From assembly GCA_028819075.1 (NCBI GenBank), contig JAPPMM010000040.1:1-64000 (forward strand): DNA of 64,000 nt, written 5' to 3'. Shown in pieces: positions 4,548-41,482 of this stretch. Positions within the stretch are counted from its first letter, which is position 1. Every line of letters starts with the position of its first letter. Source of the DNA: Gammaproteobacteria bacterium (GTDB lineage Bacteria; Gemmatimonadota; Gemmatimonadetes; Longimicrobiales; Gaopeijiaceae). The translations under genes were made by a program, and so were the position numbers. The notes under the pieces are model-generated. The model worked only from the letters and a program-made list of their open reading frames with translations. It was not told where the DNA came from and searched no databases.

Positions 4548-4586
4548 CAGGATGACACTACTCACCGAACAACAGGGAGGCGCCAT

Positions 4587-4811
4587 ATGCGCGTATCCAT
4601 CGAATACTGCACCGCTTGAAACTACAAGCCCAAAGCCGTCAGTTTGGCGGCCACTCTCAGGAAGCGATTCCACGGCGTCGACATCGAGATGATCCCGTCC
4701 GGCGGCGGCCGGTTCGAGGTCATCGCCGACGGCCGACTGGTGTACTCGAAGGCCGCCAGCGGCCGCCACCCGACCCACGAGGAGGTCGTATCGGCGATCG
4801 AAGAAGCGTAA
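4587..4811 (+). CDS. SelW/Rdx-family selenoprotein read through an in-frame TGA
   Basis: If TGA 4617-4619 is read as selenocysteine, this frame gives a 74-residue thioredoxin-fold protein of the SelT/SelW/SelH (Rdx) family. GGGAGG at 4575-4580 sits six bases before ATG 4587, so the start is well supported although a conventional reading stops after ten codons. The N-terminus reads IEYCTA-U-NYKPKA, placing the TGA exactly at the second position of the family's redox motif CxxC/CxxU. The C-terminal half has the expected GGGRFEVIADGRLVYSK strand pair and a final helix ending EVVSAIEEA before TAA. Length matches SelW (about 75-90 residues). Family members are small thiol/selenol redox proteins. 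The gene lies between the amidohydrolase and serine hydrolase genes. A nonsense mutation of a Cys form is the alternative. Confidence 0.85.
4635..4651 (+). promoter_or_regulatory. Candidate bacterial SECIS hairpin
   Basis: Fifteen bases after the in-frame TGA, GCCGTC (4635-4640) can pair with GGCGGC (4646-4651), including one U-G pair, around the five-base loop AGTTT. The loop starts about 22 bases after the TGA and has a G in its second position. Distance, stem length and the loop G agree with published descriptions of bacterial SECIS elements, which lie inside the coding region just after UGA and bind SelB. It was judged by eye only, with no folding energy. Confidence 0.6.
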
Positions 4812-4921
4812 CGACGATCCCGCACTCGGAATCGCACGCGGGTCCCGGGGTACAACCGGCTTGCCTCGCGAACCGCCTTGGGCAAAACCAGGCGGCCCGC
4901 CTTGTCGATGGTAGTTTCCAT
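4808..4921 (-). pseudogene. Remnant of an AbrB/MazE-type antitoxin
   Basis: Reading the minus strand from ATG 4921 gives METTIDKAGRLVLPKAVREA, then LYPGTRVRFRVRD. This is the standard swapped-hairpin AbrB/SpoVT DNA-binding domain found in VapB and MazE antitoxins. After about 38 residues the similarity stops where the family normally has DGRIEIEP, and the frame runs on as an antisense shadow of the selenoprotein gene to 4622. No ribosome site is clear and no toxin gene follows on either strand. I read it as a decayed antitoxin end. Confidence 0.55.
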
Positions 4922-4978
4922 GGTGGTTGTTATGGTTTGCCTGATGCCAAAGATCCAGACCCTTCCCGAGAAGCATCC

Positions 4979-7045
4979 ATGCGTGAACAGCCCGAAATGA
5001 TCCTGAGCTCCCCCCGCCGCAGTGTCCTGCGCGCCGCCTTCACCCTTCGCGCCATCGCGGTTTCGCTACCGTTCGTGGCGGTCACGGTCAGCGTGCTGCT
5101 CTTCGCGGGCGACCTCTCCGCCCAAACCGCCCTCTCCGTCTGCCGCACCCTGTCCGGCTCCCTCTCCGAGGGCGACACCGCGCGCTACACCTTCGAGGCC
5201 GGGGAAGACTACTTCGTGCTCGGCGAGGTCGATCAGGTTTCCGCGGACATCGACGTGCGGGTGCTCGGATCGGACGGAGAGACGCCCTGGGGGAACTCTT
5301 CCGGACCGGGCCGCGGCGCAGAGCGCTTCGCGGTGCGTCCGCCGGAAGCCGGCGCGTACACGGTCGAGCTGACCCCCGCGGAGGGCGAATCGGGTGACTA
5401 CACCATCACCCTGCTTCGCCTCGAGCCGCTCGAAACCGACCCGGAGAAGCTCACCGACCAACTCATGTCCCGATACGAGGGCGAGGAATCCCCCGGGGCG
5501 GCCGTTCAGGTCTGGCGCGACGGCGAGACGCTCTTCTCCAGGGCCTACGGCATGGCCAACCTCGGCTACGGCATCCCGTTCGCCACCAACACGCGCACCA
5601 ACATCGGCTCGACCTCCAAGCAGTTCACCGCCTTCGCCATCATGCTGCAGGCCGAGCGCGGACTGCTCTCGCTGGACGACGACATCCGCAAGCACATCCC
5701 GGAGCTGCCCGAGTTCGACCACACCGTCACCGTACGCCATCTCATCACGCATACCTCCGGGCTGCGCGAGTTCCTGAACCTGACGCGCATGACCGGGCGG
5801 CGCCTCGACCGAGGCGACTGGATCGACCGATCCGAGATCATCGACATCGTCCAGCGCCAGCCCGCGCTCCAGAACGAGCCCGGCGCCGAGTGGAACTACA
5901 ACAACACCGCCTTCGGGCTGGCCGCGGTCATCGTCGAGCGCACCTCGGGCCAGGACTTCCCCACGTTCATGCGCAACAACGTCTTCGAGCCGCTGGGGAT
6001 GACCCGCACCCTGGTCCGTCCATCACCCATTCACATCGTCCCGGAGATGTCGGAGGGCTACACGCCCGGGCCCGACGGCTTCCTGCAGATCGGCGACCTG
6101 GGTGGCGCGGCGGGAGCCGGCGGCATGTACTCCACGCTGGACGATCTGCAGACCTGGGTGGAGAACTACGCGAATCCGCGGATCGGCAGCGCGGAGATCT
6201 TCGAGGAAATGATGACGTCCTACGTCCTTTCCGGCGGCGAGGAAACCGGCTACGGCTACGGCCTCTCCGTCGACGAGCAGCGCGGCCTCAGGCGGGTGTC
6301 GCACGGAGGCGCCGACGTAGCGCACCGCTCGATGCTGGCCTGGTACCCGGAGATCAACGCCGGCATCACCACCCAGAGCAACCATGCGGGCTTCAACAGC
6401 GCGGTCGCGTACGAGCTGGCCGAAGCGTTCTTCGCGGACGCGATGAAGCCGGAGGATGCCGTGGCGGAGGAAGCGGGTGAGGACGCCTTCGATCCCGCCG
6501 ACTACGACCCCGAGGATTTCGACGACCTCGCCGGCCGCTACGCGCTCGACGAGACGCCCGCCTTCATCCTCACCTTCACCCGCGAAGACGACACCTTCTA
6601 CGCGGAACCCACCGGACAGCCCCGGCTCGCGATGGTGCCGACCTCCGACACCACGTTCGCCATCGAGCGCGTGTCCGCGACCATCGTCTTCCACCGAAGC
6701 GAAGACGGCAGCGTGAGCCGCATGACGCTGGACCAGAACGGTCTCCATCCCGGGACGCGCGTGCCCGGCGCGGAGGAGGCCGGCGATCCCGAGGCGCTGG
6801 CCGACTTCGAGGGCCGCTACTTCAGCGAGGAGATCGAGACGTTCTTCGAGATCGTTCTGGAGGACGCCGAACTGGTCATGAAGCAGCGCCGGCTGGACGA
6901 CGCGACGCTCGAGCCGGGCCAGCCGGACACGTTCTCCGGCGGCGGCTTCACCTTCCGCTTCGAGCGCGACCGCAACGGCCAGGTGATCGGGTTCTACCTG
7001 TCGAACGGGAGGACACGCGACGTGCGCTTCGGGCGGGTGCGGTGA
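4979..7045 (+). CDS. Secreted serine hydrolase, beta-lactamase/class C PBP fold
   Basis: Protein of 688 residues. ATG 4979 begins a basic N-terminus followed by a hydrophobic signal ending LSAQ near residue 46; the longer frame upstream runs through the selenoprotein gene in another frame and is not credible. Residues 50-140 look like a small beta domain resembling the pre-peptidase C-terminal type. Residues 150-470 are the beta-lactamase-like domain, with SxxK at S211-T-S-K214 (NIGSTSKQF), YNN at about 307-309 and a late HGG-type motif (VSHGGADV). The last 170 residues resemble DUF3471 lipocalin-like modules that often follow such domains. Family members hydrolyse peptides, esters or beta-lactams; the substrate is unknown. 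Confidence 0.87.
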   Translation: MREQPEMILSSPRRSVLRAAFTLRAIAVSLPFVAVTVSVLLFAGDLSAQTALSVCRTLSGSLSEGDTARYTFEAGEDYFVLGEVDQVSADIDVRVLGSDGETPWGNSSGPGRGAERFAVRPPEAGAYTVELTPAEGESGDYTITLLRLEPLETDPEKLTDQLMSRYEGEESPGAAVQVWRDGETLFSRAYGMANLGYGIPFATNTRTNIGSTSKQFTAFAIMLQAERGLLSLDDDIRKHIPELPEFDHTVTVRHLITHTSGLREFLNLTRMTGRRLDRGDWIDRSEIIDIVQRQPALQNEPGAEWNYNNTAFGLAAVIVERTSGQDFPTFMRNNVFEPLGMTRTLVRPSPIHIVPEMSEGYTPGPDGFLQIGDLGGAAGAGGMYSTLDDLQTWVENYANPRIGSAEIFEEMMTSYVLSGGEETGYGYGLSVDEQRGLRRVSHGGADVAHRSMLAWYPEINAGITTQSNHAGFNSAVAYELAEAFFADAMKPEDAVAEEAGEDAFDPADYDPEDFDDLAGRYALDETPAFILTFTREDDTFYAEPTGQPRLAMVPTSDTTFAIERVSATIVFHRSEDGSVSRMTLDQNGLHPGTRVPGAEEAGDPEALADFEGRYFSEEIETFFEIVLEDAELVMKQRRLDDATLEPGQPDTFSGGGFTFRFERDRNGQVIGFYLSNGRTRDVRFGRVR

Positions 7046-39638: not shown

Positions 39639-41482
39639 TGGCATCCGGTCCGGCGCCGGCGCGACCGCCCCTGCGCTTCGTCCTGTGCGGCGCCGTGGAC
39701 GACGGCAAGAGCACCCTTCTCGGCCGGCTGCTCTGGGACTGCCGGCAGGTCTTTGCCGATCAGATGCGCAAGGTGGAGGAGGATTCCCGGCGCTGGGGAA
39801 CCCGGGGCGACCAGGCGGATCTGGCGCTCCTGGTCGACGGTCTGCGCGACGAGCGCGAGCAGGGCATCACCATCGACGTCGCCTACCGGAGCTTCGAGAC
39901 GGCCCGGCGCCGTTTCATCGTCGCCGACGCGCCCGGACACGAACAGTACACCCGCAACATGGCGACCGGCGCCTCGAACGCCGAACTGGCGGTCGTTGTG
40001 GCCGACGCCCGCAAGGGGATCCTGCCCCAGACCGCCCGGCACACCCGCATCGCCGCCATGTTCGGGATCCGGCACGTGGTCCTTGCGGTCAACAAGATGG
40101 ATCTGGTGCTCTGGGACCGGAGCATCTTCCAGGCGATCGCCGACGAGTACCGGTCGCTGGCGCGGGATTCGGGTGTCGAGAGCCTGCGGATCATGCCCGT
40201 ATCTTCGCTTACGGGAGAGAATCTCACGCGCCGCCGCGATTCGGCCGAGTGGTATGCCGGCCCGACGCTGCTCGAGCACCTGGAGACGGTCGATGTCGAA
40301 TCGTCCATCGAAAGGGAGTCCTTCCGGATGCCCGTCCAGTACGTCAACCGGCCCAGCCCCGATTTTCGCGGCTACAGCGGCCGGATCACGGCCGGCAGGG
40401 TCGCCGTGGGGGACCGTGTGCGCATATCCCCGTCGGGAGCGGAGACCGTCGTGGAGTCGATCGTGGTTTGGCAGGGGGCCCGGGAGCGGGCCGAACGGGG
40501 CGACTCGGTGACGCTGACCCTCGCCAACGAGGTGGATGTGACGCGCGGAGACGTGATCGCGGAAGCCTTCAATCCGCCGGGTGTGACGGACCAGTTCCAG
40601 GCCAACCTGATCTGGATGAGCGACCGCCCTCTGGTGGTCGGCCGCTCCTACCTGCTGAAGATCCATTCGCGGGAGGTGACCGCGACCGTCACCCGCATCA
40701 AGTACCGGCTGGACGTCTCGCGGGGAAGCAGGCTGGCAGGCGCCACGCTGAACCTCAACGACCTCGGCACGGTCAACATCGCGACCAACCGGCCGATTCC
40801 CTACGCGCCCTTCGACCGATACCCCGGGCTGGGCAGCTTCATCCTGATCGATCTGGCCACCAACGAGACCGCAGGCGCCGGCACCGTCAACTTTGCGCTC
40901 AGGCGCGCGTCCAACATCCGCTGGCAGGACTTCCACGTCACCCGGGAGGCCCGCCAGGAACTCAAGCTGCAGCGGGCCCGGTGTCTGTGGCTCACGGGAC
41001 TCCCGGCGTCGGGCAAGTCCACGATCGCCGACCTGCTCGAGAAGCGCCTTCACGCGGAGGGCCACCACACCTACCTCCTGGACGGCGACAACGTCCGCCA
41101 CGGACTCAACCGGGACCTCGGCTTCACCGAGGCCGACCGGGTGGAGAACATCCGCAGGGTGGCCGAGGTGGCTCGACTGATGGTCGATGCGGGGCTGATC
41201 GTCATCGTGTCCTTCATCAGCCCCTTCCGGTCGGAACGGGCTTTCGCCCGCGGTCTGTTCGCACCCGGTGACTTCAACGAGATCTTCGTCGACGCGTCCA
41301 TCGAAGTGTGCGCGGCGCGCGACCCGAAGGGACTGTATGTCAGGGCGATGAGGGGCGAGATCACGAACTTCACCGGCATCGACAGCCCCTATGAGCAGCC
41401 CGAGAACCCGGACCTGCACCTCGACACCGAGGAGCTGGGGCCCGAGGAGTGCGCGGAGTTGATTCTGCGGCGGCTGGTCTGA
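39638..41482 (+). CDS. cysNC: Bifunctional sulfate adenylyltransferase subunit 1 / APS kinase
   Basis: Protein of 614 residues. Residues 1-430 are the CysN GTPase (GAVDDGKSTLLGRL, DAPGHEQYTRNMATGASNAE, NKMDLVLWD and two beta-barrel domains). Residues 445-614 are CysC, APS kinase (LTGLPASGKSTIADLLEKRL, LDGDNVRHGLNRDLGF, SFISPFRSERAFARGL). Together with CysD it converts sulfate to APS and then PAPS. The product serves cysteine synthesis or sulfation; no reductase or sulfotransferase is in this window. The cysNC fusion is a known arrangement. Confidence 0.95.
   Translation: MASGPAPARPPLRFVLCGAVDDGKSTLLGRLLWDCRQVFADQMRKVEEDSRRWGTRGDQADLALLVDGLRDEREQGITIDVAYRSFETARRRFIVADAPGHEQYTRNMATGASNAELAVVVADARKGILPQTARHTRIAAMFGIRHVVLAVNKMDLVLWDRSIFQAIADEYRSLARDSGVESLRIMPVSSLTGENLTRRRDSAEWYAGPTLLEHLETVDVESSIERESFRMPVQYVNRPSPDFRGYSGRITAGRVAVGDRVRISPSGAETVVESIVVWQGARERAERGDSVTLTLANEVDVTRGDVIAEAFNPPGVTDQFQANLIWMSDRPLVVGRSYLLKIHSREVTATVTRIKYRLDVSRGSRLAGATLNLNDLGTVNIATNRPIPYAPFDRYPGLGSFILIDLATNETAGAGTVNFALRRASNIRWQDFHVTREARQELKLQRARCLWLTGLPASGKSTIADLLEKRLHAEGHHTYLLDGDNVRHGLNRDLGFTEADRVENIRRVAEVARLMVDAGLIVIVSFISPFRSERAFARGLFAPGDFNEIFVDASIEVCAARDPKGLYVRAMRGEITNFTGIDSPYEQPENPDLHLDTEELGPEECAELILRRLV

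Follow-up and report, generated by a model that had tools for sequence, protein, structure and literature searches.

Locus and genomic context

A short gene for a Rdx/SelW-like selenoprotein lies near the start of the 64,000-nucleotide stretch of DNA analysed here, hereafter called the window (Table 1). Its ATG (4587-4589) is preceded by AGGGAGG, and a G/A-rich site is found at the equivalent place upstream of the gene in relatives from the same genus. Between this ATG and the TAA at 4809-4811 the sole in-frame stop is the TGA of codon 11 (4617-4619); the frame contains no other stop and no frameshift. An earlier note on this DNA had described a well-placed ribosome site leading into a 74-codon frame broken only by that TGA, and its coordinates were recovered exactly. 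With selenocysteine (U) at codon 11 the translation is MRVSIEYCTAUNYKPKAVSLAATLRKRFHGVDIEMIPSGGGRFEVIADGRLVYSKAASGRHPTHEEVVSAIEEA.

Table 1 Features of the selenoprotein locus (window coordinates).
Feature	Position	Strand	Description	Basis
Rdx/SelW-like selenoprotein gene	4587..4811	+	74 codons, ATG to TAA, Sec at codon 11	Translation, family scores, frame kept in relatives, dN/dS
Shine-Dalgarno-like ribosome binding site	4575..4580	+	GGGAGG, 6 nt before the ATG	Sequence, relatives
CxxU redox motif	4608..4619	+	Cys8-Thr-Ala-Sec11	Translation; aligns with CxxC of 2ljk
In-frame TGA	4617..4619	+	Read as selenocysteine	Conserved at related loci
SECIS hairpin	4635..4651	+	GCCGUCA-GUU-UGGCGGC	MFE fold, consensus fold, covariation, rare codons

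The next gene downstream is beta-lactamase-like. Its open frame mechanically begins at TTG 4616, inside the selenoprotein gene and in another reading frame, and its true start is likely near ATG 4979, because similarity to several relatives resumes at 4963-5028. The mechanical backward extension of this frame, over 4616-4978, could mislead a gene caller. A remnant of a MazE/AbrB-type antitoxin gene was also observed on the minus strand at 4811-4921, and it reads on into the antisense strand of the Rdx gene. At three related loci (L027, L028 and L030) a complete antitoxin gene and a PIN-domain toxin gene are located between the Rdx and beta-lactamase-like genes; about 600 nt are absent from the window.

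Family membership and purifying selection

The U11 frame exceeded the cut-offs of three Rdx-family models: 73.7 bits for Pfam Rdx PF10262 (cut-off 22.6), 66.6 bits for TIGR02174 CXXU_selWTH (cut-off 34.2) and 97.2 bits for NF041051 (cut-off 88). Comparison with the SelW/SelT/SelH family bears out the earlier reading that family-typical protein follows the TGA. The CxxC or CxxU near the N-terminus by which Rdx/SelW-like proteins (SelT/SelW/SelH) are recognized is present as Cys8-Thr-Ala-Sec11. Among solved Rdx proteins, phmmer returned the C17orf37 protein (2ljk, 46.4 bits) as the best match, together with mammalian selenoprotein W (2npb, 27.3 bits). Both contain a homologous Rdx domain, although their entries are longer (96 residues for 2npb and 117 for 2ljk, compared with 74 here). 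The Cys-x-x-Cys of 2ljk aligns with the Cys-x-x-Sec of the window gene; the TGA occupies the second redox position, as had been claimed. A search of the gene's own genome returned this single Rdx gene, with its single TGA.

Bacterial SelW-like selenoproteins (PF10262, TIGR02174, NF041051) share with the window gene a short Rdx domain, an N-terminal CxxU, an in-frame UGA and a SECIS element just downstream with a G in its small apical loop, and nothing essential differs here. These proteins constitute a well-described family (PMC1088965, PMC1794560, PMC2398784) that has been known since at least 2005; they are abundant in marine samples (PMC1088965, PMC2398784) and rank as the top prokaryotic selenoprotein family by abundance in ocean surveys. 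The window gene adds to this already known family, and the earlier note overstated its novelty.

Selection on the gene was estimated from dN/dS, which was 0.08-0.23 over the whole gene. Downstream of the TGA it was 0.09-0.24 in seven comparisons, of which six involved close relatives and one a more distant genome, and it remained low, at 0.06-0.21, beyond the hairpin described below. Because dN/dS is low after the TGA, the downstream frame is concluded to be translated and useful.

Selenocysteine machinery of the genome

The genome that holds the window comprises 4.40 Mb in 65 contigs and is 97.6% complete. The earlier note had proposed a search for selA, selB, selD and tRNA-Sec, and the complete set is present, each above its curated cut-off: SelA with 516 bits (contig C65), SelB with 310 bits and 634 residues (C45), SelD with 302 bits (L021, C49:71372-72280) and tRNA-Sec with 74.8 bits (C36). 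The last was also called by ARAGORN, as tRNA-SeC with anticodon TCA. All four are located on contigs other than the one represented by the 64-kb window, where the note had likewise seen no sel gene. A weak match to the selB model at window positions 39842-40558 fell below the cut-off and presumably represents another translational GTPase. Within an open frame of 830 residues, selD makes up the C-terminal part, and the N-terminal half on inspection resembles an FAD-dependent NADH-dehydrogenase-like oxidoreductase. The locus would thus encode an apparent NDH-SelD fusion protein.

The selenoproteome of the genome was sampled by protein families, and three further genes with a TGA at the redox site were found. 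One (L085, C52:5996-6424) belongs to the UGSC-containing selenoprotein family and scored 108 bits against NF041046, below the cut-off of 125; one TGA stands at its UGSC motif, and a second TGA probably ends the gene. This gene would presumably use the same machinery as the window gene, but it represents a different protein family, with UxxC in place of CxxU. The other two are peroxiredoxin-like (AhpC-TSA) genes, L088 (C47:715-1110) and L091 (C45:100033-100428), each with one in-frame TGA, in the contexts RGHWUPWC and RTRGUTVQ, at or near the position of the redox Cys.

A covarying hairpin downstream of the UGA

A stem of 7 bp (4635-4641 with 4645-4651) begins 15 nt after the UGA and is capped by the loop GUU (4642-4644), which begins 22 nt after the UGA. 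In bacterial SECIS elements the distance from the UGA to the apical loop is 16-37 nt (PMC10778597) and the loop contains a G (PMC1088965), and the hairpin in the window agrees with both descriptions. It lies within the coding region, in contrast to eukaryotic SECIS elements, which are found in the 3' UTR (PMC10778597).

In an alignment of 35 distinct sequences, 99.2% of the cells at paired positions were standard pairs, compared with a mean of 89.5% in shuffled controls and 16-50% in slid controls. Double-sided changes were observed at three pairs and in 23 cells of these 35 sequences, against 7.9 +/- 1.7 in shuffles, and the covariation score was 0.259, against 0.075 +/- 0.013 in controls. 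The same helix was returned unprompted in the RNAalifold consensus fold. The rare codons AGT and TTG are also retained within the hairpin. The 59 collected loci described in the next section include some genomes under two identifiers and reduce to 48 distinct sequences; in 47 of these the Ser codon of the loop is AGT, and in 46 it is followed by TTG or CTG. Across five genes of the window, AGT and TTG account for about 3% and about 2.5% of the Ser and Leu codons, respectively. When hairpin energy was compared with synonymous-codon shuffles, most sequences gave unremarkable P values of 0.03-0.3, the window gene among them with 0.14, and folding of the 76-nt stretch had a z-score of only -1.1. 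The shuffle test of hairpin stability is weak here because GC-rich codons make hairpins easily, and the structural case for a SECIS element rests on covariation and codon choice, not on energy. In one divergent relative (L083) a pair of the stem is broken and no hairpin was scored in the energy test.

In bacterial selenocysteine insertion, release factor 2 competes for a UGA that is directed by a SECIS element. Truncation would therefore be expected at low selenium, and the UGA might then be recoded mainly as low-level readthrough with Cys or Trp, or might act as an off switch responsive to selenium, leaving a peptide of 10 residues under selenium scarcity. Either is very improbable as the main role of the codon: the hairpin covaries and is spaced from the UGA as bacterial SECIS elements are, and the downstream protein is conserved, which argues that the full-length selenocysteine product is what is selected.

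Conservation of the TGA in related genomes

Forty-five loci were obtained when bacterial and archaeal genomes were scanned, and all of them carry TGA at this codon. When the loci from the same family and the window itself were added, TG(C/T)-N6-TGA was found at the redox position in 58 of 59 loci, a count that leaves out one doubtful match (L084), also without TGA. The exception among the 59 is a Rdx gene from the same genus (L071), with Cys at the position of codon 11. Since 58 of 59 related loci share the exact codon, the TGA at codon 11 is not a chance occurrence. The loci that carry it are labelled Gemmatimonadetes, Gammaproteobacteria, Neomarinimicrobiota, Planctomycetes and Polyangia. 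Within the family, a Rdx match was found in 15 of 121 genomes, 13 with exactly one in-frame TGA and two with none; selA was present in all 13 genomes with the TGA form, compared with 92 of the 121 overall (hypergeometric P ~0.02). In the phylum as a whole, a Rdx match was present in 193 of 395 genomes; among the matches listed, all but five contain a single TGA and no further stop.

These distributions bear on whether the gene is decaying or the TGA is an error of sequencing or assembly, for instance a nonsense change of a Cys11 codon (TGC or TGT) to TGA. Cys forms of Rdx do occur in the phylum, as several matches without a stop, and the earlier note had reasoned that a random spread of stops among relatives would point to decay. 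One TGA at the same codon was found instead. The recurrence of this codon across independently assembled genomes, where nearly all of the phylum matches listed have it as their only in-frame stop, refutes a pseudogene or sequencing error, and the low dN/dS after the TGA and the lack of any further stop or frameshift weigh against it too; we regard decay or error as very improbable. Global reassignment of UGA (for example to Trp or Gly), with codon 11 an ordinary sense codon, would also leave the frame open, but its probability is negligible: TGA terminates 18 of 32 long non-overlapping mechanical ORFs in the window (not a curated gene set), more than any other stop codon, several close relatives (L027-L032) have TGA both at codon 11 and at the expected terminal stop of the gene, so that recoding must be local and SECIS-directed, and SelA, SelB, SelD and tRNA-Sec are present while the codon occupies the redox Cys/Sec site.

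The hairpin nucleotides of the collected loci show a striking likeness between phyla: a sequence of roughly GCNGUCAGUYUGGCNGC, with its rare codons, is nearly identical in loci carrying the five labels listed above. It is possible, though we consider it unlikely, that the gene and its SECIS element have moved together from phylum to phylum as a compact and portable unit. Such a unit would imply horizontal transfer, or else a SelB recognition sequence that is conserved more tightly than is usually described for bacterial SECIS elements. The protein tree (45 Rdx rows, 75 columns) contained eight well-supported forks, and the protein is too short for transfers to be resolved. Three sponge MAGs labelled Gammaproteobacteria (L026, L028 and L032) were observed to have 88-100% nucleotide identity to the window over parts of 3 kb. 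They are probably mislabelled members of the window's genus. The names of the nearest records point to Gemmatimonadota, in a BD2-11-like lineage, as the probable source of the window.

Discussion

We conclude, with a probability of about 0.97, that 4587-4811 is a SelW-like selenoprotein gene in which UGA11 is decoded as selenocysteine through SECIS and SelB to give a CxxU oxidoreductase. The reading frame, the conservation of the TGA, the machinery genes, the covariation of the hairpin and the purifying selection are shown here; from them we infer insertion of selenocysteine at UGA11, and the last four also support the earlier proposal that the organism decodes UGA in this way. In the proposed mechanism, SelA would make Sec-tRNA(Sec) with selenophosphate supplied by the apparent NDH-SelD fusion protein, and the SECIS hairpin in the mRNA would recruit SelB carrying Sec-tRNA(Sec). 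Insertion of selenocysteine at codon 11 would then yield a 74-residue thioredoxin-like protein of the Rdx family with a CxxU motif. Judging from this motif alone, the product is most likely a small thiol/selenol oxidoreductase.

The literature covered was limited and was judged by titles, abstracts and term counts; within it, no paper on this gene in Gemmatimonadota was found, and the high frequency of Rdx in the phylum was not encountered in the papers searched. That frequency is the most useful addition made here: about half of the sampled phylum genomes carry a Rdx gene, nearly always, among the matches listed, with one in-frame TGA, and genes of this kind may be overlooked or cut short by standard gene callers. 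The window gene confirms the use of selenocysteine in a poorly cultured bacterial lineage. The finding is useful for annotation and, for selenium biology, extends a known family in an expected way.
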